Origin: Streptomonospora salina | GTDB lineage: Bacteria > Actinomycetota > Actinomycetes > Streptosporangiales > Streptosporangiaceae | Length of the DNA: 64,000 bases | Reading direction: 5' to 3' | Assembly: GCF_014204715.1 (NCBI RefSeq) | Contig: NZ_JACHLY010000001.1 | Span: forward strand, 3,432,501-3,496,500 | Shown here: positions 17,126 through 55,754 of the stretch, piece after piece | How the letters are laid out: each line of letters starts with the position of its first letter | How positions within the stretch are numbered: position 1 is the first letter of the stretch | Notes under the pieces: generated by a model | Seen by the model: only the letters and a program-made list of their open reading frames with translations | Database searches by the model: none | What the model was told of the DNA's origin: nothing | Made by a program: the position numbers and the translations under genes

Positions 17126-17210
17126 CGAACCTCCGCAGCGACGCACGTAATCCGCTTCGAAGGTACCAATGCGCAAACGTCCCATTGCAGATGATGGGTG
17201 CGGTTACGGG

Positions 17211-18242: not shown

Positions 18243-18379
18243 CGCTCAACCCTTCCAAGCCGGCGCTGCGTGCCGGGCGGGACGTGGTCGGTGGTTTGGG
18301 GCAAGCGTAATCACTTGTCGTAATCTCGACCTAGGCGGGCCGACGGCACGCCGCCGCGGAAAGGAACGGTACGTCGACG

Positions 18380-28757: not shown

Positions 28758-29253
28758 ACACGTTGGGTAGTGATTCCAGTTCAGACGTTTTCGGTCGCTT
28801 TGATGCGAACCGATTAGGAAACTCCGGGTGAAAGGCGACACATGCCCGGCCGCCCGTACCGTGCCCGTCCCGCTCGCCCGCCGGCGGGCGGTCTCCCTTC
28901 TGCGGTATGGATTCGCAGGTGAAAGCCCGTCCAGAGTTCCCGTGGCGCCCCTTTCCCGAGACACCGCCGACACAGAAACCTTCCTGTAGAGCGATAGCTT
29001 CCTTTCCGGCCGGACCGCAATCGGTGCGTTGACCGTGCCTGATTCAGGGGCTTTGCTGGTATCGCCCGGTGTGTACTGAACGCTCCCTTGCTCCTGAGGC
29101 ATGCCGGTAGGTACACCGTGCGGGTCAGACACGAAACACGGAGAGGTAGACGCGGCCGAGATGCGTAACAATGGCGCACCATAGGTGTGGGATAGACAGG
29201 GCACCGGGAATCCGGCCGGTGGACCGCGTCCACGAGGGGATGGGGAGGCGTAG

Positions 29254-30231
29254 ATGGCTCGCAAGCCGACCGCGCGGCGCGGCGGCGGACCCGTCGAGGA
29301 TCCCGCCGAGGCGGGCGGCCCCGACGAGTTCGGCGACTCCCCGCGGCGCAGTCGCCGCCCCCGCGCCGGCGCCGGCGGGCGCTGGTGGATCGGGGTCGGA
29401 CGCGCGGTGCTGTGGGCGTTCATCATCGTCGTGATCTTCAACGGCGTCTGGATGCCGCTGCGCGGCGGACTGGCCGAACCCGCGACCGACGACGAATCCG
29501 ACGCCCAGCAGGAGCCCGACTTCCCCGAGACGGCCGCCTCCGGCTTCGCCGCGCGCTTCGCCGGCGTCTACCTCGACGCCGACGGCCTGGAGGACGAGGA
29601 GCGCGCCGACGCCCTGGCCGCCTTCGTCCCCGAAGGCCGGGCCGCCTCCTTCGCCGCCGAGGGCCAGTCGGTCAGCGGCGACGGCATCGGCGTCGTCGGG
29701 GTGGACGTCCGCGACGAGGAGAACGCCGTCGTCACGCTCAGCGCCGACGTCGACGGCGCCCCGATGAGTCTGGACGTGCCGATCTACGCCGCCGGCCCCG
29801 ACAGCTTCGTCGTCTCGGGTCCGCCCGCCCTGCTGGCCGCTCCCGGCCGGGCCGAGCTGCCCGCCCCCGAGACCGCCGACACCGACGCAGCGGCGCGTGA
29901 CGAACTGCTTCCGCGGCTGGAGCGCTTCTTCGGCGCCTACGCCGAAGACCCCGACTACCTGTCCGACTTCGTCGAGCCCGGCGCGCGCATCGACCGGCTG
30001 CCTCCCGACACGCTCGAATTCGTCGAACTTGTGGACATCGTCGTGCCCGCATCCGGTTCGGGGGACAATGATGGGCGGCAGGTCACGGCCGAGGTCGTAT
30101 GGACCCCGGCCGGGGCCGGAGAGGACGCTTCCAGCGAACTCACCCAGAGTTACGAACTCACCGTCGTCAAGGACGGAGAGAGCTGGTATGTGCGAGAGAT
30201 CCATGGAGCCCCGCAGTCGTTCGGCGAATAG
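29254..30231 (+). CDS. TcpC-like conjugation-apparatus protein
   Basis: A 325-residue bitopic protein. A basic/Gly-rich cytosolic N-terminus (~45 residues) is followed by one transmembrane helix (VGRAVLWAFIIVVIFNGVW). Two extracytoplasmic domains follow, reminiscent of the tandem NTF2-like (VirB8-like) folds of TcpC from Clostridium pCW3-type systems. In such systems TcpC is a bitopic inner-membrane scaffold. The recognition rests on topology, cluster context and the general SGFAARFAGVYLD / WYVREIHG pattern rather than a strong motif. It is the first gene of the cluster; ATG 29254 follows GGGGATGGGGAGGCG. Confidence 0.7.
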   Translation: MARKPTARRGGGPVEDPAEAGGPDEFGDSPRRSRRPRAGAGGRWWIGVGRAVLWAFIIVVIFNGVWMPLRGGLAEPATDDESDAQQEPDFPETAASGFAARFAGVYLDADGLEDEERADALAAFVPEGRAASFAAEGQSVSGDGIGVVGVDVRDEENAVVTLSADVDGAPMSLDVPIYAAGPDSFVVSGPPALLAAPGRAELPAPETADTDAAARDELLPRLERFFGAYAEDPDYLSDFVEPGARIDRLPPDTLEFVELVDIVVPASGSGDNDGRQVTAEVVWTPAGAGEDASSELTQSYELTVVKDGESWYVREIHGAPQSFGE

Positions 30232-30278
30232 CCGCAGCGACACCCCGCAGGGCCGCGATGCCGAGGAGACGAGCAACC

Positions 30279-30317
30279 ATGCAACCCAGATGTGAGACGC
30301 GAGGGGACGGCGACTGA
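30279..30317 (+). CDS. possible 12-residue leader peptide
   Basis: An ATG at 30279 sits behind GAGGAGACG. It opens a 12-codon frame (MQPRCETRGDGD) that stops one base before the ATG of the next gene. The next gene lacks a good ribosome binding site of its own, so translational coupling through this small frame would explain its expression. There is no homology, and it could be chance. Confidence 0.25.
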   Translation: MQPRCETRGDGD

Positions 30318-30318
30318 C

Positions 30319-30624
30319 ATGCACCCCCTGCTTACGGGTCTCACCCCCGCGGTCGCCGACGCCGCGGGCCCCATCGCCCTCGCCGCGACCGAGAACGCCC
30401 CGGACACCTCCGGGCTCGCCGACTTCCTGCGCGGGTTCTTCGGCCCCCTGTTCCTGGTCATCGTCTCCGTCGTCGCCATCTTCTTCCTGTTCACCAGGGA
30501 GATCACCCGATTCGCTCAATTCATCATTCTGGCGATCTTCATCGGGATCGTGTTCTACGTGCCGGGGATCATCGAGGTGACCGCGCGGGCAATCGCCCAA
30601 GCGATGGGCGTGTCGACCGAGTAG
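30319..30624 (+). CDS. small membrane protein of the conjugation-like cluster
   Basis: A 101-residue protein with two or three hydrophobic segments (FFGPLFLVIVSVVAIFFLF and FAQFIILAIFIGIVFYVPGII) and an N-terminal Ala-rich start. Size, topology and place between the TcpC-like and TcpE-like genes suggest a pilin-like or TcpD-like channel component, comparable to VirB2/VirB3-type subunits. This is inference from context; no sequence motif proves it. The stop is 12 bp before the next GTG, which has AGGAGG. Confidence 0.6.
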   Translation: MHPLLTGLTPAVADAAGPIALAATENAPDTSGLADFLRGFFGPLFLVIVSVVAIFFLFTREITRFAQFIILAIFIGIVFYVPGIIEVTARAIAQAMGVSTE

Positions 30625-30636
30625 GAGGCCACAGAC

Positions 30637-33600
30637 GTGGACCTGCCCACGTACACCAACATCTGGCGGATCGAGAAGAAGCTCTACAAGCTGTATGACT
30701 TCCGGCTTCCCCAGCCGGTCTCGGTCGTCTTCATCGGTGTCGTCGTGGGCGTGGCCTTCGTCTGGGTGATGCTGCTGCGCCTGGTCGGCGTCCCGCTTGA
30801 GATGCCGCTGCACGTCGTCTACATCGTTCCCCCTTTCGTCATCGCCTTCCTGGCCACCCGTCCCGTCATCGAAGGCAAGCGGCTCAGCGAGCTCATCTCC
30901 TCCCAGACCCGCTACCTCGCCGAGCCCCGGACGTTCACGCGGCTGCGCCCTGAGCGCGAATCCGGCCGAGCCGCGGTCATCGTGCGCGTCTGGCACCGCG
31001 ATCCCCGGGCCGGACCGCTGCCCGAGGCCGCCGTACCGGCACCCGCACGCGGGCGCGCCCGCTCGGGTGAGGGCGAGCCGGAACCGGCCGTGGAGGAAGA
31101 GCAGCAGCCGGTCCGGGCGGCCGCAGCGCCGCACCGCACGGCCGATCAGGCGCCTCCGCTCGCCGATGCGCTGCCGTTCGCGTCGCCGCTGGACGAGCCC
31201 GCGCCGGCGGAGCGGGAGCACACCGCCGACCCGCTGGGGGAGGGCGAGGAGCCGGTGCCGGCGGCCGCGCCGTCCGGCCGCGGGCCCGCGGATCCCGCGA
31301 GCGGGTCCGGGCCCGAGCTTGAGCACGAACCCGAACCGGACGCTGTTCCGGAACCGGGCGCGGGCACGTCCGGGCATATCCCCGAGTTCGCGCGCCCCGC
31401 CACCGGGCCCGAGCCTGCGGCTGCCGCCGAGCCGGTCGCCGAGCCGGTCGCCGAGCCGGTCGCCGAGCCGGTCGCCGAGCCGGTCGCCGAGCCGGTCGCC
31501 GAGCCGGTCGCCGAGGAGGCGCCGGCCGACGGGCACGCCGTTGCCGCCGCTTCGTCGGCCGCCGAATCCGCACCGCCCGACCTGCGGCGGGAATGGGAGT
31601 ACGACCGCGAGACCGCCCAGTCGGCACCCGAGCGCGGTCTGGGCGTGCGGATCCTGAACTACTTCGGGTTCGCCCTCCACAAGGCGCCCCCGGCCGGTGC
31701 CGATCCCGACACCCGGAACCGCGGCCCCGCTCCGGGCACCCGCGGCCCCGTGACCGGGCCGATCCCCGGTGCGGCCCGTACCCCCGCCGAACTCGCCGAG
31801 CGCTTGGCCGCGGCCGAGAGCCCGGCACTGAGCGAGGACGAGCACTCCCGCGCGGCAGCCGACGCCGAGCGCGCGGCCGCCGGGGCCGAACCGCCCGCGG
31901 CCGTCGACCGCCCCGCCGCGGGCGACGCCGCGGCCCGCCGGCCCACCGAGGAGATGATGGCGGCGCCGGTGCCCGCCGAGCCCGAGCCGGAGCGCGAGCA
32001 CGCCGCAGCGTCCGAGCACGACGAATCGGCCGCACCCGCGCTCGGGCCGCAGCGCCGGCTGCGCGGGCGCGCCCAAGGAATGGAGGTCGCCCGCCGCCTG
32101 GAACACGCACGCTCCGACGAACGCGCCCCGGGGCAGGCCGCCCGGTCCGCCGCCTCCGCCCCCGCGGACCCGCCCGTCCGGACCGAGCCCGTCCGCGAAC
32201 GCGCCCTCCCTCCCGAACCCGCCGAACCCGGACGCGGCGCGGGAGAGGCCGCGCCGACCGGCCGCCCCTCTCTGCGCGAGCGCCGCGCCCAGCGCCGCCC
32301 GCACGCCGCGCCGTGGGACCTGCCCGTCCCGCTGGACGGGGGCTCCGACGAGCACGCCGACGCCCCCGACCCGCAGCGGCGCGGAGAGGACACGGCGCCG
32401 GCAGCGGAGACCGCGGGGCCGGATTACGCGGACGCGCGGGATGGGCAGGACGCGCTGGGCGGATCCGCGGGTGCCCCGGCCGCGCGGGAGGCTTCGGGCA
32501 AGCCGTCCCTGCAGCTCGACCACGGGACCGACGAGCACAACAGCCTCTCCGGACTCGTGCGCGTGTCGGCGGCCTCCGCCGAGCGGGGGCGGACCGGTAC
32601 CGGCACCGAGTCCGCCGGTGAGGGCATCCGTCCCGGGACCGGTACCGGCACCGAGCCCGCCCGCCCCGAAGCCGATGCCGACCGGGACGCCGCGAGTGGC
32701 GGCGACGAGCAGCGGCCTTCGGACGCCGACCAGGCGGACCAGGTCGACCAGGCGGCCCCGGCGGACCGGGAGGCTTCCGGAAAGCCGCCGCTGCAACTCG
32801 ACCACGGCACGGACGCACACGAGAACCTGGCCCAGGTGGTACGGGCCTCTACCGCGGTGCCCGGTAGCGCAGACCGGTGGACCGGGAACGCCGCCCGGGG
32901 CGGGTGGGACGGCGCCGACGACGCCGCGCCCGGCCGCCGGCCGGACGAGGACGCGGAACCGGTCGCGGCCCCCGGATCCGCGGCGGAATCCGAGGCGGAA
33001 TCCGCGCCGGAGGAGACCCGGGCGGCGGACCACGGCGTCCGCGAGGAGCCCGACGGGGAGCCCGCCGCGCCGGGCGGCGAGCGGCAGAACGGGCCGCCGC
33101 GCACCGCAGACGACCGGGACGATCACGCCGACCAGTTGGCGGTCCTGGACCGCTACCTCGGCCACACCGACACCCCGCCGCCGCCTCGCCCCCGCTTCCA
33201 GGAAGCCGGCGGCCCCGAGCCCCGCCGACCGGTGGCCTGGTTCACCGACACCCCGGAATCCCGCGGTACCGACCGCGAGGACGGAACGAACGCCGACGGC
33301 GAGCGCAGCGGCCGGCTCTCCGACGGCGGGGGCCACGGGCCCGCGCCCGCCGCCGAGCACCCGGCCGACGACGACCGGCCGGGTGCACCCCGGCAGGAGC
33401 GCACCGCCGAGAGCGCCGAGCCGGCCGCAGAGGACGGCGGCCGCGCCGCCGGCGGCCACCATGCCCTTCCGCCGCTGGCGGGCCCTCCGGTCGAAACCGG
33501 CGCCGCCCCGTCGCTGCGCGTCGCCGCCACCACCGGTGACAGCGACCGCCCCGACGGCATCGAACCGTCGGCCCCCGCCGAACCGTCCGCCCCCGCCCCC

Positions 33601-35460
33601 GCCACCGCTGACGGAGGGGACGCCCGGGATGCGGCGGACCAGCCGCCCCTTCCGCCGCTGGCCGGGCCTCCGGACGGAACCGACCGCAGAGCGCAGCCCG
33701 GAAGCGGAGCGGGCGCCGGCCGCAGCGCCGAACCCGACCGTGGTACCGACGTCGACCGTGCGGTCGACGGCACGGACCGCGCGGCGCCGGCTGCCATGAC
33801 CGGCAAACCCTCGCTCGAACTCGACCACGGCACCGGTGAGCACGCCTCCTTCGGCCGCGTCGACACCCCGCACCGCCCGGCCCCGGCATCGGCCCCGGAC
33901 ACCCGCGCGGACGCGGCCGGACGGCCGCGCCCCAGCGGCGCGGAGCCCGACCAGGCCGCCCGCCGCGCGGACACCGCCGACCCCCCCGAGCCCGCCGCGG
34001 CCGCCCCAGTCGGCGACGACGCGGGCACCGGCGCCGACGCCGGTACCGATACCGCCGACGCCGGTCCCGATGCCGTCGGCGGCGACCGGCACGGCGACCG
34101 GTCGGACCGGCTCTCGCGCACCATCCGGTCCAGCCCCACCGGCGGCTCGCCCGCGATGTCCGCCGACACCGCCGACACCGACACCGGCGGCGCCGATGCG
34201 CCGTCCCCGGCGGTCGGCGACCGCCCCGTCCGCAACGCCCCATCCGCCGACATCGACGACGGCGTGTTCGCGCGGGTCGCCCACAACGCCCGCCGGCTCA
34301 GCCACCTGTTCGGCCAGACCCCGCCCGGTACCCCGCCGGTCCCCCGGACGGACGCCGACCCCGCGCCCGGCACCGCCGCCCAGCCCGACGGCGGCGGCTC
34401 CACCGGCAGCCGGAGCGACGACGAAGCCGACAAACCCGAACTGCAGCTCGACCACGGCACCGGCGAGCAGCAGCGGATGAGCGCGCCCTCCGACGGCGAC
34501 CCCGCGGCCCAGGCCCCCTCGGCCGACTCCGACCGGTCGGCGTCCGGCGACCCCAGCGGCACCCGCGGCTGGCGCCGCCTGGCCCGCGTCGTCACCGGCG
34601 GTTCCCCGGCGGCAGCCAAGTCCGACCTGCCCGACGGCGACATCGGCCGGCTGCGCACTCCCCTGCCGGCCGCGCGCAATGTCGTCGTGCTCGGCTGCAC
34701 CGGGGGAGCGGGCCAGACCGCCACCACCCTCATGCTCGGCCACACCCTCGCCGCTTACCGCGACGAGCGCGTCGCCGCCGTCGACGTCAACCCCGGCAGC
34801 GGCGGCCTGTCGCGGCGCATCCGCTCCGAGACCCCCGAGACGGTCACCTCGCTGCTGGCCAACGCCGACTCCGTGCACACCTACGCGGGCATGCGCCGCT
34901 ACACCTCCCGCCTGCAGTCCACCGGCCTGGAGATCGTGGCCACCCTCGACGACCCGTACGTGCAGACCCTCGACGACCGCGACTACGCGGGCCTGGCGGG
35001 GCTGCTGGAACGGTTCTACGAGGTCACCGTGCTCGACCCCGCCGCCACCGGCGTCGCGCGGGCCCTGCCCGCCGCCGACGGCATGGTGCTGGTGGCGCCC
35101 GCCAGCGAGGACGCCGCGCGGGCCGTCGCCATGACATTCGAATGGCTCGACGGCCACGGATACGCCGCGCTGCGTTCCACCGCGGTGGTCGTCATCAACG
35201 GGGTGAGCAAACGCAGCCTCGCCGACGTCGACGCCGCGGAGCAGGTGGCGCGCGGCCGCTGCCGCGCCATCGTCCGGGTGCCGTGGGACGACCACCTGGC
35301 CGCGGGCAAGGTCGTCGACGTCGGCGCGCTGCGCTCCACCACGCGGCGCGCCCACGGCGCCCTCGGCGGGGTCCTGGTGCGCGGGCTGGAAGGCTCCGCG
35401 CCCCCCGGAGGGCCCCACCCGGGCGGCCCCCGGCGCCGAACGTCGGAGGCCCGCCGATGA
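30637..35460 (+). CDS. giant TcpE-like / disordered / MinD-ParA-like fusion protein
   Basis: A 1,607-residue protein. Residues 1-115 form a TcpE-like membrane module (YKLYDFRLP, then two hydrophobic helices and LISSQTRYL). Residues ~120-1,335 are Ala/Pro/Asp/Glu/Arg-rich and probably disordered. They include seven EPVA repeats (~265-292), two LPPLAGPP copies and four KPxLxLDHGT motifs at about 622, 716, 1057 and 1266. Residues ~1,345-1,590 resemble a MinD/ParA P-loop fold (NVVVLGCTGGAGQTATT, VAAVDVNPGSGGLSRRI, VVVINGV). Both lysines normal for the deviant Walker A are absent, with T and Q (residue 1360) in their place. It may be a regulatory, non-hydrolysing domain. GTG 30637 follows AGGAGGCC. 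Confidence 0.75.
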   Translation: MDLPTYTNIWRIEKKLYKLYDFRLPQPVSVVFIGVVVGVAFVWVMLLRLVGVPLEMPLHVVYIVPPFVIAFLATRPVIEGKRLSELISSQTRYLAEPRTFTRLRPERESGRAAVIVRVWHRDPRAGPLPEAAVPAPARGRARSGEGEPEPAVEEEQQPVRAAAAPHRTADQAPPLADALPFASPLDEPAPAEREHTADPLGEGEEPVPAAAPSGRGPADPASGSGPELEHEPEPDAVPEPGAGTSGHIPEFARPATGPEPAAAAEPVAEPVAEPVAEPVAEPVAEPVAEPVAEEAPADGHAVAAASSAAESAPPDLRREWEYDRETAQSAPERGLGVRILNYFGFALHKAPPAGADPDTRNRGPAPGTRGPVTGPIPGAARTPAELAERLAAAESPALSEDEHSRAAADAERAAAGAEPPAAVDRPAAGDAAARRPTEEMMAAPVPAEPEPEREHAAASEHDESAAPALGPQRRLRGRAQGMEVARRLEHARSDERAPGQAARSAASAPADPPVRTEPVRERALPPEPAEPGRGAGEAAPTGRPSLRERRAQRRPHAAPWDLPVPLDGGSDEHADAPDPQRRGEDTAPAAETAGPDYADARDGQDALGGSAGAPAAREASGKPSLQLDHGTDEHNSLSGLVRVSAASAERGRTGTGTESAGEGIRPGTGTGTEPARPEADADRDAASGGDEQRPSDADQADQVDQAAPADREASGKPPLQLDHGTDAHENLAQVVRASTAVPGSADRWTGNAARGGWDGADDAAPGRRPDEDAEPVAAPGSAAESEAESAPEETRAADHGVREEPDGEPAAPGGERQNGPPRTADDRDDHADQLAVLDRYLGHTDTPPPPRPRFQEAGGPEPRRPVAWFTDTPESRGTDREDGTNADGERSGRLSDGGGHGPAPAAEHPADDDRPGAPRQERTAESAEPAAEDGGRAAGGHHALPPLAGPPVETGAAPSLRVAATTGDSDRPDGIEPSAPAEPSAPAPATADGGDARDAADQPPLPPLAGPPDGTDRRAQPGSGAGAGRSAEPDRGTDVDRAVDGTDRAAPAAMTGKPSLELDHGTGEHASFGRVDTPHRPAPASAPDTRADAAGRPRPSGAEPDQAARRADTADPPEPAAAAPVGDDAGTGADAGTDTADAGPDAVGGDRHGDRSDRLSRTIRSSPTGGSPAMSADTADTDTGGADAPSPAVGDRPVRNAPSADIDDGVFARVAHNARRLSHLFGQTPPGTPPVPRTDADPAPGTAAQPDGGGSTGSRSDDEADKPELQLDHGTGEQQRMSAPSDGDPAAQAPSADSDRSASGDPSGTRGWRRLARVVTGGSPAAAKSDLPDGDIGRLRTPLPAARNVVVLGCTGGAGQTATTLMLGHTLAAYRDERVAAVDVNPGSGGLSRRIRSETPETVTSLLANADSVHTYAGMRRYTSRLQSTGLEIVATLDDPYVQTLDDRDYAGLAGLLERFYEVTVLDPAATGVARALPAADGMVLVAPASEDAARAVAMTFEWLDGHGYAALRSTAVVVINGVSKRSLADVDAAEQVARGRCRAIVRVPWDDHLAAGKVVDVGALRSTTRRAHGALGGVLVRGLEGSAPPGGPHPGGPRRRTSEARR
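31429..31512 (+). repeat. 12-bp tandem repeat (7 copies) encoding EPVA
   Basis: Seven identical head-to-tail copies of GAGCCGGTCGCC encode (EPVA)7 inside the giant fusion gene. Perfect DNA identity suggests recent slippage expansion, so copy number probably varies between strains. Confidence 0.9.
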
Positions 35461-35540
35461 CCCGCGGCGGCGCCCCGCCCCTACGCCGGGGAGCGCGCCA
35501 CCGGACCACCACGCCCACGATCGGGGAGGATCAGCGATGA
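35457..35540 (+). CDS. possible 27-residue coupling ORF
   Basis: ATG 35457 overlaps the stop of the fusion gene (ATGA). The 27-codon frame, rich in Arg/Thr/Pro, ends in a TGA that overlaps the start of the VirB4-like gene (ATGA). The double overlap would couple translation across the 76-bp gap. However, the downstream gene has its own GGGGAGGAT site. There is no homology, so this may be chance. Confidence 0.25.
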   Translation: MTRGGAPPLRRGARHRTTTPTIGEDQR

Positions 35541-38050
35541 ACGGCAGCAGGAGCGGTACCCGCCTCTCCGTCCGCTACTTCGACGACCGCATCCTGCTCA
35601 GCGATGCCGAGGCCTGGGCCTACTTCCGCCTGCCCACCGTGTCGTACGAGTTCGCCACCCCCGACGAACGCGAAGCCCTGGCCACCAACATCACCATCGC
35701 GCTGGCGGCCATCCGGATGAACGACGCCGAAGTGCACCTGCGCGTCGCCCACCGCACCTACCCCGCCGCCGAATGGGCCACCCGGCTCGACGCCACATCC
35801 GACTCCGGGCCCGGCTGGTTCGACTACCTCGACGAGATGTACCGGCACGTGTGGGCCAAGGACTTCTGGACCAAGGAGGTCTACCTGGGTGTGCGCCTGG
35901 GCCAGCGCGGCGGTGTGCGCGGCCAGCTCTCCCAGGGGGTGTTCGCCCAGTTCATCAGCGCCTACCAGCGCACCGAGCAGGTGCTGGGCCTGGAGGACGA
36001 CGCCATCGACGCCAAGGAGCTGGCCAACTGGACCGACCAGGCCGAGCGCCTCGGCCGGGCGCTGGCCGCCAGCTCGCTGCACGCCCGCCACGCCACCTCC
36101 GACGAGATCGCGTGGCTGATCCGGCACGCGGTCACCGGCACCATCGAGGAGTCCCGCCGCTCCGCCGCGGGCCGCCGCACCTGGGGCAAGGGCGAAATCG
36201 AGCAGCTGGTCGAAGGCGTCGTCCACAACGGCCGGTCCATGCTGCGGCTGGACCAGCCCACCGGCTCCACCTACGTCGCCTACCTGTCCTTCTCCCGGTT
36301 CCCCGACCTGATGCCCTTCCCCGACGGGGAGCCGTGGCTGCACTACGCCGACGCGCTGCCGTTCCCCGTGGAGCTGTCGCTGCGGATGAAGCTCGTTCCG
36401 CCGGCGAAAGCCAGCAAGGACGTCGGCCGCAAGCTCGCCCATGCACGCGACATGGACGCCCACATCCGCGAAGCCGGGGCGGACGCCCCGATCGCGCTCG
36501 CCGAGCAGATCGACGCCGCGCGCATGCTGGAGCACGGCATCACCAAGGAGCGGCTGCCCTTCGTCTACGGCTGGCACCGCCTGATGGTGTCGGCCCCCAC
36601 CGAGAACCTGCTGGTGCAGCGGGTGGAGGCGGTCGTCGAGCACTACCGCGACATCGGCATCGACGTCGTCAACTCCACCGGCGACCAGTTCTCGCTGTTC
36701 TCGGAGTCGCTTCCGGGCGACCGGATCCGGCTCAACGCCTACGCCCAGCGCCAGCCGCTGCGCACCATCGCCGGCGGTATGCCCACCGCCACCATCGACT
36801 TGGGCGACCGCCGCGACTCGGCTGGCGCGGGCTGGACCGGTCCCTACATCGGCGAGACCATCGGCCGGGCGCGCTCGGTCGTGCATTTCGACCCGATGGT
36901 GGCGGCGGCACGCAACCGCCCCACGGCCATCGCGATCACCGGCGAGCCCGGTGGCGGAAAAACCACGCTGGCGCTGCTGCTGATCCACCAGCTCGCGCTG
37001 CGCGGCGTCACCGTCGCCGCCATCGACCCCAAGGGCGATGCGGAGTCGCTGGTCCGGCTGCTGCAGCGGCGCGGCCGCAAGGCCCGGATCATGTCCATGG
37101 CCTCGGCCGAACCGGGGTTGCTGGACCCGTTCGCCTTCGGCGACGACCTGTCCGCGCAGAAGACCATGGCCACCGAGACGCTGCGGCTGCTCCTGCCCAG
37201 AATGAGCGAGGAACGGGAATCGGCGATGATCCAGGCGGTGGCCGCCGTCGCCAACCAGCCCCGCCCCAGTCTCGCCAAAGTCGTCGAGCACCTGGAGGAC
37301 TCCGACGACCCCGCCTCCCGCAACCTCGGTGCCGTGCTGCGGTCCATGTCGGAGATGCGGCTGGCGGGCCTGTGCTTCGATCCGCAGGGCGAAACCCAGA
37401 TCGACACCGAAGGCTGGACCACCGTCTTCACGCTCGGCGGACTCACCCTGCCCGACTCCGCCGTCCAGCGTGACGACTACTCCTACGAGCAGCGGCTCAG
37501 CGTCGCCCTGCTCTACCTGGTCAGCCAGTTCGCCCGGAGGCTGATGAACGGCCTCGACCGCCACCTGCCCAAAGCCATCTTCCTGGACGAGGCCTGGGCC
37601 GTCACCTCCACGCCCGAAGGCGCCAAACTCGTGCCCGAAGTGTCTCGGATGGGGCGTTCCCGCAACACCGCCCTGATCCTGGTCAGCCAGAACGCCGGCG
37701 ACCTCCTCAACGAGCAAGTCACCAACTGCCTGTCCAGTGTGTTCGCCTTCCGCTCCAGCGAGCGCCACGAGGTCGAAAGCGTCATGTCGCTGCTGGGGGT
37801 CGATTCCTCGGAGGAGCACCAGGCGATGCTGCGCAACCTCGGCAACGGCGAAAGCATCTTCCGCGACCTCGACGGCCGCGCTGGACGGGTCGCCGTGGAC
37901 CTGGTGTCCGAAGAACTCCTGGAGTGGCTGGACACCAACCCCACACGGAACCGGCCGGACGACATCCCCGACGACGACGGCGCAGGCGCCGGGCCCCTGG
38001 TTGCGACAGGCGGCACCGGCGGTACCAGGAGGATGGGGCAGGACCAGTGA
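35537..38050 (+). CDS. VirB4/TcpF-like conjugation ATPase
   Basis: An 837-residue cytosolic/membrane-associated ATPase that powers assembly or transport in type IV secretion-like machines. Walker A is GEPGGGKTT (469-477) and Walker B AIFLDEAW (680-687). The IDPKGDAESLV and LILVSQNAGDLL segments are typical of VirB4/TraC-type and HerA-related ATPases. The ~450-residue N-terminal domain (SVRYFDDRILLSDAEAWAYF start) matches the actinobacterial branch. The GTGA overlap with the next gene indicates a tight operon. No FtsK/TcpA-type coupling protein is present besides this. Confidence 0.88.
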   Translation: MNGSRSGTRLSVRYFDDRILLSDAEAWAYFRLPTVSYEFATPDEREALATNITIALAAIRMNDAEVHLRVAHRTYPAAEWATRLDATSDSGPGWFDYLDEMYRHVWAKDFWTKEVYLGVRLGQRGGVRGQLSQGVFAQFISAYQRTEQVLGLEDDAIDAKELANWTDQAERLGRALAASSLHARHATSDEIAWLIRHAVTGTIEESRRSAAGRRTWGKGEIEQLVEGVVHNGRSMLRLDQPTGSTYVAYLSFSRFPDLMPFPDGEPWLHYADALPFPVELSLRMKLVPPAKASKDVGRKLAHARDMDAHIREAGADAPIALAEQIDAARMLEHGITKERLPFVYGWHRLMVSAPTENLLVQRVEAVVEHYRDIGIDVVNSTGDQFSLFSESLPGDRIRLNAYAQRQPLRTIAGGMPTATIDLGDRRDSAGAGWTGPYIGETIGRARSVVHFDPMVAAARNRPTAIAITGEPGGGKTTLALLLIHQLALRGVTVAAIDPKGDAESLVRLLQRRGRKARIMSMASAEPGLLDPFAFGDDLSAQKTMATETLRLLLPRMSEERESAMIQAVAAVANQPRPSLAKVVEHLEDSDDPASRNLGAVLRSMSEMRLAGLCFDPQGETQIDTEGWTTVFTLGGLTLPDSAVQRDDYSYEQRLSVALLYLVSQFARRLMNGLDRHLPKAIFLDEAWAVTSTPEGAKLVPEVSRMGRSRNTALILVSQNAGDLLNEQVTNCLSSVFAFRSSERHEVESVMSLLGVDSSEEHQAMLRNLGNGESIFRDLDGRAGRVAVDLVSEELLEWLDTNPTRNRPDDIPDDDGAGAGPLVATGGTGGTRRMGQDQ

Positions 38051-40494
38051 CCGACACCGCGACGCCGACCGCCGCGTACGCCTCCGAGGACGACGCACAA
38101 CCTCCGTCAGCCGCACCGCCCCGCCGGCGGCGGCGCCGGGGCCCGAGGCGCTTCAAGCGCAACCTGGTGATGGCTGCGCTCATGCTGGCCTTCCTGATGA
38201 CACCGATCGGCAGCGCCCAGGCCGCCCCGGTCTGCGAAGGGGAACCCGCCCCCCAGCCGGAGGCCGCAGGCAGCGGAGCGGACGGCCTGCTGGTGCCGCC
38301 GCAGGCCGCCGAAACCGCCGCGCAGTCCCCTGACGGCCTGCCCCCGGACTCCAGTCTGTACGGGCAGTACGGGACCGCCGGGCAGCAATGGCACGTGGTC
38401 CGGGAATCCTGCGTCGACAAAATGGGCTCGGCGGCCGTCGCGACGCTGAGCAACACGGCGTGGAACCTCTCGAAGACCATCAACCAGTCGACGATCACGG
38501 TTTATCAGGCGGCGACCTCAGACGGACTCCTCGCCAGTTTCAACACGCTGGTCGAAGACGTCGTCATGCAGCTCCGAGAAGGAATCTGGCGCCCGCTGCT
38601 GCCGACGGTGATCATCCTCGGTGCCGTCTGGCTCGGGTGGTACGGACTCATCCGAAAGCGCGTCACCCTCACCATCGAGAGTGCGGTCTGGATGGTGCTG
38701 GCAACCACGCTCGGAATGTGGATCCTCGTCAATCCGGGACAGATCCTGGGCTACGCGGGAACTATAGTGAACTCGGGCGGCCAGCTGGTGAATTCGGCGA
38801 TTTCGAGGGTTGCGACGCCGAGTGGCGGAGCCACGTGTCCAACTTCTGCGCCGGAGATTGAAAAGGCCAACTGGGAGAGCGAAAGTGACTTCGCTGTCCG
38901 AAAAAATGCTCAGATGTTGTGGTCCGGACTTGTCTGCCGCCCTTGGGTGTCTGGAGAATTCGGGAGTGGTGTGGCTGCAAACTCCGCTTCCGAGCGTTAC
39001 GCAATGCCCTTACTTGAGGCGCAAGGGATCAGTCGTGCTGAGCAGCAGCAAATCGCCAATGGTGAGACGGATCCCACGGAGCTCGTGGAGCAAAAACAGG
39101 AAGACTATCAGGAAATCGCTAGTGGAATCGAGCGGACTTACCCAGAGGTCTACCCGCTATTCGAAGGCGAACAGCAAGGGAGTCGTCTGGGTGTTGCTAC
39201 ACTTGCATTGTTTGCGGCAGTTTTTGCTGGCGGGCTAATACTTGCTGCGTCAGTGGCACTGATTGTCTTGAAAATCGGATTTCTACTCTTGCTTTTGCTT
39301 TCTCCGATATTCTTGCTCATTGGGATTCACCCTGGATATGGCCGGACGGTGCTGCTGCGCTGGTTCGAGATGTTGCTTGGATTGCTTCTCAAGCAGATAT
39401 TCATCATGCTTCTCGTATCGCTTTTGGTTGTTTGTTACGGTATGGTAATGGCTACGAATCTGGGATGGGGGCTGCAGATGATCCTGCTTGCCCTCTTTAC
39501 CCTCGCTCTGTTCATATACCGACGGCCGTTCGCTCATCTCTTTCAATCCGTGAATGCGAATACCTTCACGTCGCGGATGGTGAGTGACGCTGCATCGAGC
39601 AGCGCCTTGAGCAAGAGCTCGAACGTGCTGCCTCCCGTGGCCTACATGCGGGCTCAGAAGTGGGGCCTCAAGCGGAGCCCTCAGCTTGCCGGAGCGGCGG
39701 CCGCGGTTCCGGCCGGTGGAGGCGGAGCGGCGGCCGGTGCCGGGGAAGCGGCCGAGGCGCCCCGTGGCGGCGGAGTCCCGCAGCAGGAAGCGGCCGAAGC
39801 AGAGGTCGGCCGCGCCCGCGGCGACGCCGGGCGCGGGCGTGCCGGCGGCGGCTACGGCAGGGTGCGCGGCAATTCGGCCCCCCCGCCCCTCAACCTCGGG
39901 CAGGACGGAGAACGGGGCCAGCAGCGGGCCGCCGCGGCCGGCCGCTCGACGTCGGAAGCGCCACGACTCAGCGAGGCCGCGTCCGGAGGAGCGGGCAACG
40001 GCAGCGCCCGCGCCGCTTCCTCCGGATCGGGAAGCATCCCGCCGCGCCCCGCCGGCGGTTACACCGGAAGCGGCGATACCGGCTGGTCTTCGGTGTTCGG
40101 CAGCGGAGGCGGCGGCGACCAGCGGTCGGCTCCGCAGCGGTCCTCGGGCGACGAGGCGCCGTCGGGCGACGGGGGAGCGCGCCGTGCCGATCCGAACTCC
40201 GGCGCCGGCATCTTCCGCGGCCGCGAGGCCACACCGCCGCAAGGAAACGTCAATCGCGGCTCCCGGTGGGGCGGTCCCCGATCCAAGCAGGGCCGCAGCG
40301 CGCCGCCCCCGCGCGAACCGCGCCAGCCCCGCCCCGCACCGTCGAAGGGGTCCGGTGAGGGCGGAAGCTGGATCAGCGGATCCGGCGACAAGAACAACGA
40401 CGCCCCGAGCAGCCCCTTCTGGACCGGTACTGAATCCCAGCGCCGCCGCGACGTCCGGCGCGACCGGCCGTTCTGGTTGCGGGACGAAGACTGA
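38047..40494 (+). CDS. VirB6/TrbL-like polytopic channel protein (TcpH-like), mosaic base composition
   Basis: An 815-residue protein. A basic leader and a signal-like helix end in SAQAAP. An extracellular segment with paired cysteines follows, then two groups of membrane helices (LLPTVIILGAVWLGWYGL and later). A Leu-rich cluster spans about residues 385-505. A ~300-residue Gly/Ala/Arg/Ser-rich cytosolic tail ends in WLRDED. This is the topology of VirB6/TrbL or TcpH channel proteins. The core region around 38,780-39,640 is clearly lower in GC (codons such as TTG, AAA, ATA, TTT) than its flanks, so the gene looks recombinant. GTG 38047 overlaps the previous stop. Confidence 0.75.
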   Translation: MTDTATPTAAYASEDDAQPPSAAPPRRRRRRGPRRFKRNLVMAALMLAFLMTPIGSAQAAPVCEGEPAPQPEAAGSGADGLLVPPQAAETAAQSPDGLPPDSSLYGQYGTAGQQWHVVRESCVDKMGSAAVATLSNTAWNLSKTINQSTITVYQAATSDGLLASFNTLVEDVVMQLREGIWRPLLPTVIILGAVWLGWYGLIRKRVTLTIESAVWMVLATTLGMWILVNPGQILGYAGTIVNSGGQLVNSAISRVATPSGGATCPTSAPEIEKANWESESDFAVRKNAQMLWSGLVCRPWVSGEFGSGVAANSASERYAMPLLEAQGISRAEQQQIANGETDPTELVEQKQEDYQEIASGIERTYPEVYPLFEGEQQGSRLGVATLALFAAVFAGGLILAASVALIVLKIGFLLLLLLSPIFLLIGIHPGYGRTVLLRWFEMLLGLLLKQIFIMLLVSLLVVCYGMVMATNLGWGLQMILLALFTLALFIYRRPFAHLFQSVNANTFTSRMVSDAASSSALSKSSNVLPPVAYMRAQKWGLKRSPQLAGAAAAVPAGGGGAAAGAGEAAEAPRGGGVPQQEAAEAEVGRARGDAGRGRAGGGYGRVRGNSAPPPLNLGQDGERGQQRAAAAGRSTSEAPRLSEAASGGAGNGSARAASSGSGSIPPRPAGGYTGSGDTGWSSVFGSGGGGDQRSAPQRSSGDEAPSGDGGARRADPNSGAGIFRGREATPPQGNVNRGSRWGGPRSKQGRSAPPPREPRQPRPAPSKGSGEGGSWISGSGDKNNDAPSSPFWTGTESQRRRDVRRDRPFWLRDED

Positions 40495-40524
40495 ACGACC
40501 GTCCTCCACTAGGAAACCCCCGAT

Positions 40525-41217
40525 ATGCCCAGATCTCTCAGTGAAGGTCAGCAGCGCCTCGTGTTCGGCGCTCTCGTCGTCGTGCTCGTGGCATTCGGCA
40601 TCTACCTGAGCCTGGGCGGGTGGAGCGACGGCTCCGGCGACGACGCGGCGTCCTCCGGGGCCGCCTCCGAGCCGCCCGCCGTGGGCGGCGAGCAGGCGAG
40701 CGGTACCGGGGACGTCGCGCCGCCGAGCCCGATCCCCACCACGGCCGCCCAGGACATGCCGGTGATGGAGTGGTTCCCCTTCAGCGAGGAGGAGTTCAAG
40801 GCCGCGGCGGCGACAGCGCAGGAATTCGGCCGGTCATACGGGACCATCGACTATTCGGGGTCCCCCGAGGATTACTACGCCGGCATGCAGGAGCTCGCGA
40901 CGGACGACTACGCCCAGACCCTCGCCGAAAGCTCCGGCGCCAGCGCCCTCTGGCAGGACATGGCCGATCAGGAGGCCGTCTCCGAGGGACGGGCGAACGT
41001 CGAATCCGTCCGCACGTTCGGCGACGATTCCGTGACGTTCGTGGTGCAGGTGCAGTCGATCACCGAAGGCGAGGACGGAACTACCGACGACCTGGGCGAG
41101 TTCGCCGTCACCGTCGCGGATCAAGGCGGCGAGTGGCGGGTCTACGACTTCCAGCCCTCCGATGCCGGGAACCTCGGCGACGTCCCCGATCAGCCGGGAG
41201 ATTCGGCAGGTGACTGA
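40525..41217 (+). CDS. membrane-anchored accessory protein of the conjugation-like cluster
   Basis: A 230-residue bitopic protein. It has a short N-terminus, one transmembrane helix (LVFGALVVVLVAFGIYLSL) and a Ser/Gly/Pro linker. The extracytoplasmic ~150-residue domain (WFPFSEEEFKAAAATAQEFG to GGEWRVYDFQPSD) has the size and ending of an NTF2-like/VirB8-like fold, a weak inference. Its stop directly abuts the ATG of the wall hydrolase gene. Confidence 0.65.
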   Translation: MPRSLSEGQQRLVFGALVVVLVAFGIYLSLGGWSDGSGDDAASSGAASEPPAVGGEQASGTGDVAPPSPIPTTAAQDMPVMEWFPFSEEEFKAAAATAQEFGRSYGTIDYSGSPEDYYAGMQELATDDYAQTLAESSGASALWQDMADQEAVSEGRANVESVRTFGDDSVTFVVQVQSITEGEDGTTDDLGEFAVTVADQGGEWRVYDFQPSDAGNLGDVPDQPGDSAGD

Positions 41218-42390
41218 ATGATCTCTTTGTTCGCCGGACCGGCCGCCCGGAATGCGGACACCGGGGCCGCCGTCACGCGGTTGGCGATCGCCGTCGGCCT
41301 GTTCCTGCTCGGCGCGATCGTGGTCGGCGTCGTCATCGTTCCGCTGACAGCGCTGAACCCGGGGATCATCAGCTCGGTCGGAGCGTTGCAATGCACCTCC
41401 GATGGAGCGACTGACCAGGCGGAGAGCAGCGGCTATGCCGAGGACTCCATCCCGGAGGACTATCTGGACCTCTACCGTTCGGTCGGGGAGGAGAAGGACG
41501 TTCCCTGGAACGTCCTTGCCAGCGTCGGACAGGCCGAGAGCGACCACGGCCGCTGGCCGGGGGCGGGTATCACCGAGGGCCACAACGATGCCGGCGCTGC
41601 GGGCCCCATGCAGTTCGGCGCTCTCGACGGCTCGGCCGCGGGTAACAGCTGGGGAGGCGAGCCGGTCATGGACGCCGACGACCGGCCCGAGGAGGGCTAC
41701 GGCCAGGACGGCAACGGCGACGGAACCGTGAGCGTCTACGATCCCGCCGATGCGATCCCCGCGGCGGCCGACTACCTCCTCGCCCACGGTGCGCAGGAAG
41801 ACATGGACGAGGCGATTTTCGCCTATAACCATTCGTGGGGGTACGTCGACGAGGTCACGAGCTGGGCCGACCGCTACGCTGAGGGCGACTTCGAGACCAG
41901 CGGATCCGTCCAGCGGGCCGTCAACTGCGAACTCGACGACGAAGGCGAGCCGATCAGTCTGCTGGCGTCGAGCGATCTGGCGCAGGACGTCGTGGAATGG
42001 GCGATGGACCAGCGCGGAAAGCCGTACGTGTGGAGCGCTACCGGCCCGGACGCATTCGACTGCTCGGGGCTGACACAGGGCGCGTACGGGAGCATCGGTG
42101 TTTCCATTCCGCGGGTGTCCCAAGACCAGTGGGCCTTCGGCCCGAAGATTCCGGAGGGCGAGGAACAGCCCGGAGACTTGGTCTTCTTCGATGTGAACGG
42201 CCCCGGCGGAACGCCCGGGCACGTCGGCATGGTCGTCGGGGACGGGCTCATGGTCGAGGCATGGTGCACCGACTGCGGGCCGATCGCGACGCGCGAGTAC
42301 GATGCTCCCGGCCGGTCTGCCATCCTCGGGTTCACCCGCCCTTTGGAGCATCCCGACGTGAAGGCTCAACTGGGTGACCGGGCACAGTAG
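41218..42390 (+). CDS. bifunctional transglycosylase / NlpC-P60 peptidoglycan hydrolase (CwlT/TcpG-like)
   Basis: A 390-residue membrane-anchored enzyme that would open the cell wall for the envelope-spanning complex. One N-terminal membrane helix (AIAVGLFLLGAIVVGVVIVPL) comes first. A lytic transglycosylase domain (about 75-220) follows, with the catalytic glutamate in VGQAESDHGRW and AAGPMQFG. The NlpC/P60 endopeptidase domain (about 250-375) has the nucleophile in FDCSGLTQ and the histidine in GHVGMVVGDG. The same pairing occurs in CwlT of ICEBs1 and TcpG of pCW3. It is the strongest functional link to conjugation-type systems besides the VirB4 ATPase. Confidence 0.9.
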   Translation: MISLFAGPAARNADTGAAVTRLAIAVGLFLLGAIVVGVVIVPLTALNPGIISSVGALQCTSDGATDQAESSGYAEDSIPEDYLDLYRSVGEEKDVPWNVLASVGQAESDHGRWPGAGITEGHNDAGAAGPMQFGALDGSAAGNSWGGEPVMDADDRPEEGYGQDGNGDGTVSVYDPADAIPAAADYLLAHGAQEDMDEAIFAYNHSWGYVDEVTSWADRYAEGDFETSGSVQRAVNCELDDEGEPISLLASSDLAQDVVEWAMDQRGKPYVWSATGPDAFDCSGLTQGAYGSIGVSIPRVSQDQWAFGPKIPEGEEQPGDLVFFDVNGPGGTPGHVGMVVGDGLMVEAWCTDCGPIATREYDAPGRSAILGFTRPLEHPDVKAQLGDRAQ

Positions 42391-42429
42391 TCTGCGACCG
42401 CTTCCCTCGTCACTGCTGAGGATCGGAAA

Positions 42430-43179
42430 ATGACTGAAGAGAAGGCCGCGCCGCGCAAAAGGCAGGGAGTCCGCGGGTGGCGTGCTTTCTTCCTGGTGTT
42501 CGGATGTGGAACTACAGCGGCGTTGCTCGTAGTCGGTACGTTTGTCGGAGCCGTCCGGATGCTCGGATCGGCAGTCACGCAAGACTCGGAATCTCCTGGG
42601 GGCGGTGTCGCCGAGGGAAGCTGGGAGCCACCGTCTGCGATGCCAGCGGATGCTCTAAAACTGTGTAGGCATATCGAGCGGTCTCCTGAAACTGCAGCGT
42701 TTACCTCCATGTTTCCAGAGCGAATAGACGATGATGATGACTATAAGGATCCAGGCCCCGGGGCGAACCCTCGGTTGGTATTCGATGATTGTGAATGGTC
42801 GCTTCAGTCTCCGGAAAACGGGGAATGGAGATTTGTTCTTTCGTATTATGCTTGGGCATCCCAGGATTCAAACGAAGTTCGCACGGGCAGGGCGGAAGAT
42901 CGTTTTTCCGGGTTGAGTTCGAAGTCTCAGCAGCGACTGTCCGAGGTGTCAGGTTCGGGTGAGGTTGGTGGAATAGTAAATAAATCTCGTTTTTGGTACG
43001 GGAGTCCTCAGGGGGAGGGGTACTCGCGTTACGTATTTCTTGGGCAGGCTCGTAGTAGTATCTTGCAAATTGAAGTGTCAAGTATTTCGCAAGAGGTTTC
43101 TTCCATGGAATTCGAAGCATTGGTTGAGGGGGTTTCTCCAGCGTTGGTGGACCTATTGAGGCGGAATATCCCTGCCTGA
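42430..43179 (+). CDS. low-GC membrane-anchored hypothetical protein
   Basis: A 249-residue protein. A basic N-terminus precedes one transmembrane helix (FFLVFGCGTTAALLVVGTFVGAV). An extracytoplasmic domain of ~200 residues follows, with two cysteines (KLCRHIE and FDDCEW) that could form a disulfide. The size and the CEW pattern recall DUF3558-like actinomycete exported proteins, but this is a weak resemblance. Base composition is clearly lower in GC than the neighbours, with many T/A-ending codons, suggesting separate transfer. It closes the cluster, 40 bp after the hydrolase gene. Confidence 0.65.
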   Translation: MTEEKAAPRKRQGVRGWRAFFLVFGCGTTAALLVVGTFVGAVRMLGSAVTQDSESPGGGVAEGSWEPPSAMPADALKLCRHIERSPETAAFTSMFPERIDDDDDYKDPGPGANPRLVFDDCEWSLQSPENGEWRFVLSYYAWASQDSNEVRTGRAEDRFSGLSSKSQQRLSEVSGSGEVGGIVNKSRFWYGSPQGEGYSRYVFLGQARSSILQIEVSSISQEVSSMEFEALVEGVSPALVDLLRRNIPA

Positions 43180-43288: not shown

Positions 43289-43918
43289 ATGGTCTTCACG
43301 AAGTCGCTTCCCTGCCGCGGCGACGACGCCGTGGTGCTCTTCGCCGCCGCCCAGTTCGGACTTGTCAGCCGTGAGCAGGCCCGGCGGGCCGGGCTCTCCT
43401 TCGCGGATATCTCCGCGCGCCTGCGCCGGGGAGCGTGGGCGCGGACGCTGCATCGGGGTGTGTTCCGGGTGCTGGACTACGGCACGTTGGCCTCGCCTCT
43501 GAAGCAGGCCGTCGTCGCGGCGCAGTTGGCGCTGCCTACCGGCGCGTTCGCCTGCCGGGCCACCGCCGCGCGGCTGTGGCGGTTGGACGGGCTTGCGCCG
43601 TGGGACGGCCACACGGTCGATATGGCTGTTCCGGGCCGGCGGACGTCCGCACCGCCTCCGCCCTCCACACCTTCCCGGGCGGTGCCGCCCGCCGTCCGGA
43701 TCCATGCGCTGCGCGTGTGCGACAGCGACATCGCCGTCCGGGCGCCGATCCGCCTGACCGGGGTGGGGCGGACGCTGCGCGACATGGCGGCGTGCAGCCC
43801 GGCACGCACGCGCACGCGCCTGCGCGGTTCCGCGGTCGGGCGCGGGCTCGTCGTCTCCGGTAGGCCCGACGGGCGGTCGCGGTGTCGTGGGCGGCCGCCG
43901 CCGGTGTCATCCCCGTGA
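43289..43918 (+). pseudogene. truncated AbiEi-type antitoxin / DUF559-associated protein
   Basis: The first ~95 codons match the N-terminal winged-helix domain of type IV AbiEi antitoxin-like proteins (VVLFAAAQFGLVSREQARRA, RRGAWARTLHRGVFRV, HGVFR-type signature). The middle (PIRLTGVGRTLRDMAACSPA) resembles the start of the second domain. After that the reading becomes Arg/Pro-rich without homology, and the frame runs into the 3' end of the convergent kinase gene. The C-terminal half has evidently been lost by deletion or frameshift. Confidence 0.55.
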
Positions 43919-48348: not shown

Positions 48349-48406
48349 TCGGGGGTGTCATAGGGGACACTCTCGGCGCCGAGAGTGTCCCCTATGACAC
48401 CCCCGA
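48349..48406. other. 58-bp perfect loopless palindrome upstream of Wadjet
   Basis: Positions 48349-48377 are the exact reverse complement of 48378-48406 (centre CTCGGC|GCCGAG). It lies about 130 bp before jetA, within otherwise non-coding DNA. It could insulate the operon as a terminator, be the scar or end of a mobile element, or be a binding site. Its perfect identity indicates recent origin or selection. Confidence 0.75.
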
Positions 48407-48537
48407 GGCGGCCGGATCGCCCACAGCAGCGGCGGTGTGGCCGCCCCCGGCGGCCCTTGTCCGCCCCACCCTCCCCGCTGCCCCGATTGCCGGATCCGTC
48501 GGACGCGGTGCCCGCCCATCGGGTACCAATGAGGGTG

Positions 48538-50157: not shown

Positions 50158-51407
50158 CCACAGGCACCCGTACCGAGGACCAGACCCGCGCGGAGGTCCG
50201 CCGGGCCGCGCGGGCGCTGCTGCGCGAACCCCTGCTGCGCGGGGGCGGCCGCACCGCCGACGACTTCCGGCTGGTCCGCCAGCACGCCCGGGAGCTGCGC
50301 GAATGGTTCGACCGCAACACCGGCTGGGGGCTGCACGTCGACAGCGAGACCGCCCGGCTGCGCAAGACCCCGGGGGCCCCGGACGACGCCACCCACCCCG
50401 CGCGCGAGACCGGCGGCGCCCGGCTGCCGTTCACCCGCCGCCGCTACGTCCTGCTGTGCCTGGCCCTGGCGGTGCTGGAGCGCTCGGAGAACCAGATCGC
50501 GCTGGGGCGGCTGGCCGAACAGGTGGTGCTGGAGGCGGCCGACCCCGCCCTGGCCGAAGCCGGGATCTCCTTCACCCTTGAGGAGCGCAGCGAACGGGGG
50601 GATCTGGTCGCGGTGGTGCGGCTGCTCACCCGGCTGGGCGTCATCGCGCTGGTGGCGGGCGACGACGAGGACTACCTGCGCTCCACCGGCGACGCGCTCT
50701 ACGACGTGCGCCGCCGCGTCCTGGCCGGGCTGCTCGCCGGCGGGGTGGGCCCGTCGACGGTGGCGGCCGGGACCGACGGCGACCGCCTCGCGGCCCTGAC
50801 CGCCGACCCCGTCCTGGAGTCGATGGACAGCGCCGATCTGCGCAACCGGCGGTTGCGCCACACCCTCACCCGCCGACTGATCGACGACCCGGTGCTGTAC
50901 TACGGCACCCTCACCGAGGAGGAGTCGGCGTACCTCGCCAGCCAGCGCACCGCCATCACCAGCCGGATCACGGAGCTGACCGGGCTGGTCGCCGAGGCGC
51001 GCGCCGAAGGCATCGCCATGGTCGATCCCGACGACGACCTCACCGACGTGCGCATGCCGGAGAAGGGCACGCACGGCCACGTCACCCTGCTGCTGGCCGA
51101 GTACCTCGCCTCCGGCCCGCCGCGCCCGGTGCCGCGCGCCGAACTGGAGGAACAGGTGCGCGGGTTCGCCCGCCAGTACGGCGGCCACTGGTCCAAAACC
51201 GCCAAGGAGCCCGGTGCCGAGGCCGAGCTGGTGCACCGGGCCGTGGAGAAGCTGGAGGCGCTCGCGCTGGTGCGCACGGCGACGGAGGCCGACGGCACCC
51301 GGTCGGTGCGCGCCCTGCCGGCGCTGGCGCGCTTCGCCGTCGGCGCGGCCGTCGTGCGCGGCGGCTCGGCCACCGACCCCACCGACGAACAGGAGCCCAG
51401 GCGATGA
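50154..51407 (+). CDS. jetB: Wadjet type I JetB (DUF2398, TIGR02678-like; KITE-type subunit)
   Basis: A 417-residue protein of the DUF2398/TIGR02678 family. The N-terminus has ARALLREPLLRG and LREWFDRNTGW, and FTRRRYVLLCLALAVLERSE is highly typical. VLYYGTLTEEESAYL and MPEKGTHGHVTLLLAEYL occur later. It is the MukE-like winged-helix partner that bridges kleisin and SMC. GTG 50154 overlaps the jetA stop and its own stop overlaps the jetC ATG, so the subunits are translated in step. Confidence 0.9.
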   Translation: MTTGTRTEDQTRAEVRRAARALLREPLLRGGGRTADDFRLVRQHARELREWFDRNTGWGLHVDSETARLRKTPGAPDDATHPARETGGARLPFTRRRYVLLCLALAVLERSENQIALGRLAEQVVLEAADPALAEAGISFTLEERSERGDLVAVVRLLTRLGVIALVAGDDEDYLRSTGDALYDVRRRVLAGLLAGGVGPSTVAAGTDGDRLAALTADPVLESMDSADLRNRRLRHTLTRRLIDDPVLYYGTLTEEESAYLASQRTAITSRITELTGLVAEARAEGIAMVDPDDDLTDVRMPEKGTHGHVTLLLAEYLASGPPRPVPRAELEEQVRGFARQYGGHWSKTAKEPGAEAELVHRAVEKLEALALVRTATEADGTRSVRALPALARFAVGAAVVRGGSATDPTDEQEPRR

Positions 51408-55732: not shown

Positions 55733-55754
55733 CCGCGGCGGCGCCGGACGGTAC

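Follow-up and report, generated by a model that had tools for sequence, protein, structure and literature searches.

A Tcp-type type IV secretion cluster kept across the Streptosporangiales without linked DNA-transfer genes, and its candidate self-recognition pair

The genome of Streptomonospora salina (assembly GCF_014204715.1) carries a cluster of type IV secretion system (T4SS) genes in a 64,000-nucleotide stretch of contig NZ_JACHLY010000001.1, positions 3,432,501 to 3,496,500, which is called the window here and whose coordinates are counted from its first letter. An initial annotation, made from the letters alone, had described eight collinear, tightly spaced genes coding for the core of a Gram-positive T4SS, and all eight were found, closely packed on the + strand between 29254 and 43179. 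The assignment to such a core was borne out by profile matches far above chance and corresponds to the Tcp type (Tn916/pCW3/ICEBs1-like); what had gone unmentioned is that the TcpE protein also harbors a MinD/ParA domain. The genes, and a block preceding them, are the following.

29164-29200, + strand: promoter-like block, AACAAT ... ATAGG ... GGGATAGACAGG, upstream of TcpC and similar across Nocardiopsaceae-like genera
29254-30231, + strand: TcpC (VirB8-like), 325 amino acids (aa), one transmembrane (TM) segment plus an extracytoplasmic domain; Pfam TpcC, 1.2e-11
30292-30624, + strand: small two-TM protein in the TcpD position, 110 aa, two hydrophobic segments
30637-35460, + strand: TcpE (VirB3-like) plus linker plus MinD/ParA-fold domain, 1607 aa; Pfam TcpE, 3.5e-21, and CbiA, 0.0012
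35537-38050, + strand: VirB4/TcpF ATPase, 837 aa; AAA_10, 2.7e-66, and TcpF, 6e-75 (below that model's own cut-off)
38047-40494, + strand: VirB6/TrbL polytopic membrane protein, 815 aa; TrbL, 5e-7, and CD3337/EF1877 family, 5e-25
40525-41217, + strand: P0006, second VirB8/NTF2-like protein by profile and AlphaFold2 (AF2) fold, 230 aa, one TM segment
41218-42390, + strand: SLT-like plus NlpC/P60 cell-wall hydrolase (VirB1/TcpG/CwlT role), 390 aa; NlpC/P60, 1.4e-20
42430-43179, + strand: P0008, membrane-anchored hypervariable protein, 249 aa, candidate self-recognition/exclusion partner of VirB6

With a VirB4/TcpF protein bearing both Walker motifs, and with TcpC, TcpE, VirB6 and the NlpC/P60 hydrolase encoded collinearly, the locus has the make-up of a Tcp-type translocon. 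The virB6 gene starts at the GTG at 38047, which lies inside the VirB4 stop codon, and its extent is therefore 38047-40494 and not that of the mechanical open reading frame (ORF) 37924-40494. The small two-TM protein is strongly conserved and gives a weak pilin-like signal (TrbC/VirB2 Pfam, 0.011; TraA pilin, 0.012). P0006, which has no Pfam match, was assigned as a second VirB8-like protein because it matches the OmamC (1.3e-6) and Tn916 ORF13-like (0.0083) profiles and its AF2 model (pLDDT 83) resembles structures of the VirB8 family. The hydrolase matches the structure of a Tn916-like Orf17, and its catalytic Cys and His residues are conserved.

The comparison across genomes and the dN/dS analysis that the initial annotation had proposed were both carried out, and the cluster was found at the same place, with the same genes, in many genera and with no linked relaxase. 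VirB4 was detected in 197 of 200 genomes and 44 of 45 genera of Streptosporangiales, in single copy in nearly all of them and, among the matches listed, with 78-98% identity across the order; the three genomes lacking it all come from one genus, of one other family. Outside the order, 16 of 295 genomes of a phylum sample gave a VirB4 match (E 1e-20), the best of them (46-49% identity) falling in one family in which the gene is patchy. The order (ychF)-tcpC-small TM-tcpE/minD-virB4-virB6-virB8-like-nlpC, usually located behind ychF, is kept in 31 genera; named loci belong to Nonomuraea, Actinomadura, Microbispora, Streptosporangium, Nocardiopsis, Planotetraspora, Sphaerisporangium and Actinocorallia, with a Euzebyales metagenome-assembled genome as outgroup. 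The same gene order was observed in 104 loci of at least 14 kb, the exceptions being genes lost at contig ends or too diverged for tblastn; TcpC, for instance, is present in 97 of these, the remaining loci being cut by contig ends.

Some loci carry additional genes. Nocardiopsis-type genomes (L066, L110, L111, L161, L188) carry unrelated insertions on either side of virB4, in the gaps separating it from minD and from virB6; in L066 these include a Ser/Thr kinase-like ORF. The machine genes are kept throughout. In the outgroup cluster (L089, genome G414), TcpC is preceded by a 1455-aa protein with PD40 and Ig-like repeats (3570-7937), and the hydrolase is followed by a BTAD-type regulator (15616-18657).

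The dN/dS values (0.05-0.11 for VirB4, 0.14-0.18 for the MinD-like domain, 0.16-0.25 for the hydrolase and 0.2-0.42 for TcpC) reveal purifying selection, and the conservation of VirB4 is comparable to that of the neighboring YchF (mean identities 0.846 and 0.821). Distances for the two proteins are closely correlated (Mantel r 0.90, a value reached in 0 of 999 permutations), and in the VirB4 tree the members of the order form one clade (100/100) with short branches, the VirB4s of integrative conjugative elements (ICEs) and of the outgroup being long-branched and unsure in their own placement. Because VirB4 is about as conserved as YchF, follows it with r = 0.90, forms a single short-branched clade and has a dN/dS of 0.05-0.11, the pattern expected of a mobile element is contradicted. 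Among the apparent in-frame VirB4 stops in some Nocardiopsis-like genomes, the one readable case, in L033, proved to be the natural end of the protein, past which the aligner had continued. The cluster is thus chromosomally fixed and under purifying selection, and the comparison with YchF and the tree support its vertical inheritance. A decayed ICE, one of two origins considered at first, would explain why relaxase, coupling protein and integrase are missing at the locus, and is refuted by the order-wide fixation, the conserved synteny and the purifying selection; we regard it as almost certainly wrong. No conserved adjacent integrase or relaxase, no patchy distribution and no widespread frameshifts, any of which had been named as speaking against a retained non-conjugative machine, were encountered, and the other option, a machine kept for a purpose other than DNA transfer, is strongly favored over decay, its function being a matter of interpretation.

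Regarding DNA-transfer genes, the window ORFs that were scanned yielded no relaxase, coupling ATPase, integrase or replication gene, as originally reported; there was also no tRNA in the window, and no search was made for att repeats themselves. The 2.35 Mb surrounding 127 cluster loci, the window included, contained nothing homologous to the local relaxases or TraG-like proteins, and when 117 flanking ORFs were scanned with Pfam, none of the 25 commonest of the 89 families was a transfer family. Where VirB4 and relaxase coordinates were listed on one contig, the nearest relaxase lay about 0.2 Mb away or farther, a figure limited by draft assemblies and unlisted coordinates. A linked relaxase and a conserved coupling protein are absent from the cluster.

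Elsewhere in the S. salina genome no MOB_P relaxase (PF03432) was found, and four Replic_Relax genes were located, at 2411214, 4208224, 2009347 and 2748074, each within about 11 kb of another T4SS module, whereas none is near the window cluster. Three of these modules (L097, L098 and L099, at 2.41, 2.01 and 4.21 Mb) are paralogous T4SS-like sets of another type than the window cluster, with TrbL-like, PrgI-like, VirB4-like, TraG-like and Replic_Relax genes; at the fourth (L100, 2.74 Mb), VirB4, TrbL and SLT-NlpC/P60 genes lie some 9-11 kb from Replic_Relax. Across 81 genomes the distribution of such genes is patchy (Replic_Relax in 44, TraG-D in 53, TrwC in 23).

These genes could be read as clients of the cluster, which would then be a chromosomal mating-pair apparatus put to use in trans by resident plasmids or integrative elements through their own relaxases and coupling proteins, and still be devoted to DNA transfer. 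Their presence in many of the genomes fits this explanation, as does the fact that exclusion-type pairs are known from conjugation (ConG-YddJ of ICEBs1, PMC9086855). On the other hand, the cluster is near-universal and relaxases and TraG-D are patchy, with 37 of the 81 genomes giving no Replic_Relax match; the other T4SS modules of S. salina carry their own VirB4-like and TrbL-like genes, and in three cases TraG-like genes; and no benefit to the host from a helper fixed in the chromosome is evident. We consider such a helper role distinctly unlikely. Replacement of a type VII system by the cluster was also considered and rejected, since EccC is found above the family cut-off in 63 of 81 genomes of the order, though not in that of S. 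salina (G000), where its absence, with congeners having one, appears to reflect a recent loss of type VII secretion.

The protein in the TcpE position consists of a membrane TcpE domain, a long linker rich in Pro, Ala and Glu and disordered as judged from its composition, and a C-terminal ParA/MinD fold. The fusion occurs without an intervening stop in all 97 loci compared, with linkers of 294-1762 residues; an LDHGT-type linker repeat was discarded as a general feature, being lineage-restricted (28 of 97 loci). The AF2 model of the C-terminal domain (pLDDT 90) retrieved ParA, Soj, FlhG and MinD with Foldseek, which places it in the ParA/MinD fold. Its Walker A motif, GCTGGAGQT in the window, reads GCTGGAGQ[TS] in 102 of 104 loci and differs by one residue in the other two. 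Relative to the deviant Walker A consensus (KGGxGKT), both lysines are gone in 104 of 104 loci, replaced by Thr or Ala and by Gln. The earlier statement that the ATPase motifs are intact thus holds for VirB4 (Walker A GEPGGGKT, Walker B IFLDEA) and fails for this domain, which is apparently a conserved, inactivated ATPase. A P-loop conserved and yet degenerate suggests binding or positioning rather than ATP hydrolysis. We found no description of this TcpE-degenerate MinD architecture in the literature searched.

At the other end of the cluster, P0008 stands apart from the remaining genes. The GC content at its third codon positions is 0.52, against 0.75-0.93 for the other seven; it shares 28-49% identity with its homologs in five congeners; and it matched neither a named family profile nor any entry of an anti-phage library. 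Its allele types cut across species. Within the genus, the genes from tcpC to virB4 track species relations, whereas virB6, the virB8-like gene, nlpC and P0008 diverge sharply: genomes G053 and G039 are 99% identical in VirB4, 75% in VirB6, 65% in the VirB8-like protein, 72% in NlpC and 31% in P0008.

In a first set of 21 loci, P0008 co-varied with VirB6 residues 276-375. The test was enlarged with 38 further stretches, giving 49 distinct loci, and P0008 was again associated with the VirB6 loop once VirB4 was controlled for (partial Mantel r = 0.50, n = 49, p = 0.0001, the floor for 9999 permutations). As the residues were chosen in the first set, whose loci sit within the 49, the larger sample extends the first one and confirms its result without being independent of it. 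Once the loop was accounted for, the remainder of VirB6 made no further contribution (r = -0.01 with P0008), and the products of the two intervening genes gave r = -0.002 (NTF2, the VirB8-like protein) and r = 0.11 (NlpC). The nearest relative of a P0008 protein was also the nearest relative of its loop in 32 of 49 loci, compared with 7 for VirB4, 6 and 8 for the intervening genes and 3-6 for other variable regions of VirB6. The co-varying loop spans residues 229-378 approximately, with a peak at 276-350, and is probably extracytoplasmic, as deduced from hydropathy and positive-inside reasoning rather than a topology program. P0008 was not found in loci outside Nocardiopsaceae-like genera, and the matching loop of VirB6 varies less in Nonomuraea and Actinomadura. 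P0008 and the VirB6 loop thus co-vary, and we infer that the two form a self-recognition pair in Nocardiopsaceae-like genera.

Two further explanations bear on these data. The cluster might be a general exporter of proteins or envelope factors, similar to Ptl or Brucella VirB, with VirB6 and P0008 as subunits under phage or predator pressure and not a recognition pair. The lack of a coupling protein, the two VirB8-like proteins and the hydrolase agree with it, direct contacts inside one complex would also predict co-variation, and P0008 has an unusual third-position GC content and species-crossing alleles. However, just one VirB6 loop is involved, the proteins of the two intervening genes do not appreciably co-vary, and no effector candidate was identified, so that we hold this explanation possible but unlikely. 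The other is a DNA uptake machine analogous to ComB of Helicobacter, a coupling-protein-free T4SS that imports DNA; it would share the absence of a coupling protein with ComB, Ptl and Bartonella Trw (PMC12857230) and find some echo in the weak pilin matches of the small two-TM protein. The cluster showed no competence gene (no search was made for ComEC), and the pairing of P0008 and VirB6 alleles would be left unexplained; we judge uptake to be improbable.

We favor, with a probability of about 0.5, a Tcp-type T4SS of Streptosporangiales that derives from conjugation and has been kept for a purpose other than transferring its own DNA, namely as a contact machine with self-recognition. In such a machine VirB4 would power a membrane channel made of VirB6, TcpE and the two VirB8-like proteins, and the SLT-NlpC/P60 enzyme would open the cell wall locally. 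The tethered MinD-like domain may replace the coupling protein, as a substrate receptor or a positioning module on a flexible arm, and would act through binding and not through ATP hydrolysis. In Nocardiopsaceae-like genera, P0008 at the surface would read the extracytoplasmic VirB6 loop, so that cells of the same type recognize or exclude one another. As to biological role, contact-dependent delivery or exchange between neighboring hyphae or cells, with self-recognition, would be the likeliest. A more specific version, which we put forward as tentative and somewhat doubtful, is an order-wide domesticated T4SS that carries non-DNA cargo between hyphae, with a pseudo-ATPase in place of the coupling protein and the VirB6 loop and P0008 serving kin discrimination in Nocardiopsaceae.

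Several points weigh against the contact machine. The co-variation could also arise if VirB6 and P0008 were subunits of a single complex subject to pressure from phages or predators, and the limitation of P0008 to Nocardiopsaceae-like genera means that self-recognition through it cannot be the whole order-wide function. Draft assemblies limit statements about the surroundings of the cluster, and the Pfam negative for flanking ORFs extends to the 25 commonest families. A TraG-D protein somewhere in 53 of 81 genomes makes an unlinked coupling protein possible, and in genome G024 a TraG-like gene lies downstream of the cluster, at a distance of about 5 kb; the latter was rejected as the cluster's coupling protein, its stretch being absent from the congener G115.

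According to a 2025 review (PMC12857230), nearly all known functions of Gram-positive T4SSs are unidirectional DNA transfer, and effector-type roles are a long-standing question. Here a strictly maintained T4SS, without relaxase and apparently without coupling protein, occurs in hundreds of soil actinomycetes (one scan gave 342 relatives), many of the carriers being named cultured strains, and the natural set of matched VirB6 and surface-protein alleles makes the recognition step testable by allele swaps.

Around the cluster, the promoter-like block is a post-hoc pattern and a putative promoter only; in other genera a related GGAACAATTG...TAGGG block precedes TcpC, so that two forms exist in two parts of the order. 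A fitted sigma-factor pattern matched 34 of 97 loci, with the window not among them, and the block was assigned to no sigma factor. Directly after the cluster, an AbiEi-like antitoxin gene (43289-43918) is kept within the genus at 59-86% identity, followed by a 325-aa ORF with no family match. A complete Wadjet set of the JetABCD type occupies 48385-57122; two GntR-type regulators lie immediately upstream of it, and a RecD2-like helicase lies downstream.

The literature searched, from which subscription journals were mostly absent, yielded no paper that describes this locus. Its gene order is nearly the same as those of Tn916 orf13-17, pCW3 tcpC-tcpH and ICEBs1 conB-cwlT. With these MPF_FA systems the window cluster shares the core of TcpC, small TM protein, TcpE, VirB4, VirB6 and NlpC/P60 hydrolase; unlike them, it has no linked relaxase, coupling ATPase, integrase or replication gene, and it has the TcpE-degenerate MinD fusion, an extra VirB8-like protein and order-wide chromosomal fixation. 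The fold of the TcpE C-terminal domain is that of the MinD, ParA and TadZ positioning ATPases, from which it differs in lacking the Walker A lysines in all loci and in being tethered to a T4SS membrane subunit. In ICEBs1, the envelope protein YddJ is encoded downstream of the hydrolase gene. Exclusion in that element reflects specificity between ConG (VirB6) of the donor and YddJ of the recipient (Avello et al. 2019, in PMC9086855). The window cluster resembles this arrangement, in Nocardiopsaceae-like genera only, in that the VirB6 loop is allele-matched with a neighbor-encoded envelope protein, P0008; unlike ConG-YddJ, its pair is known from co-variation and there is no DNA transfer to exclude. 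The T4SSs of Patescibacteria are likewise monoderm-type, chromosomal, widely conserved and mostly relaxase-less, and co-option has been proposed for them (PMC12102498). Their hosts are epibionts and their loci include VirD4-like and VirB2-like components (PMC12857230), unlike the window cluster, and the parts of these sources consulted describe no TcpE-MinD fusion. Coupling-protein-free T4SSs are also represented by Bordetella Ptl, Brucella VirB, Helicobacter ComB and Bartonella Trw (PMC12857230). All four are Gram-negative and none is of the Tcp type, whereas they have in common with the window cluster a VirB machine without VirD4 and a non-conjugative job, the latter presumed in its case.

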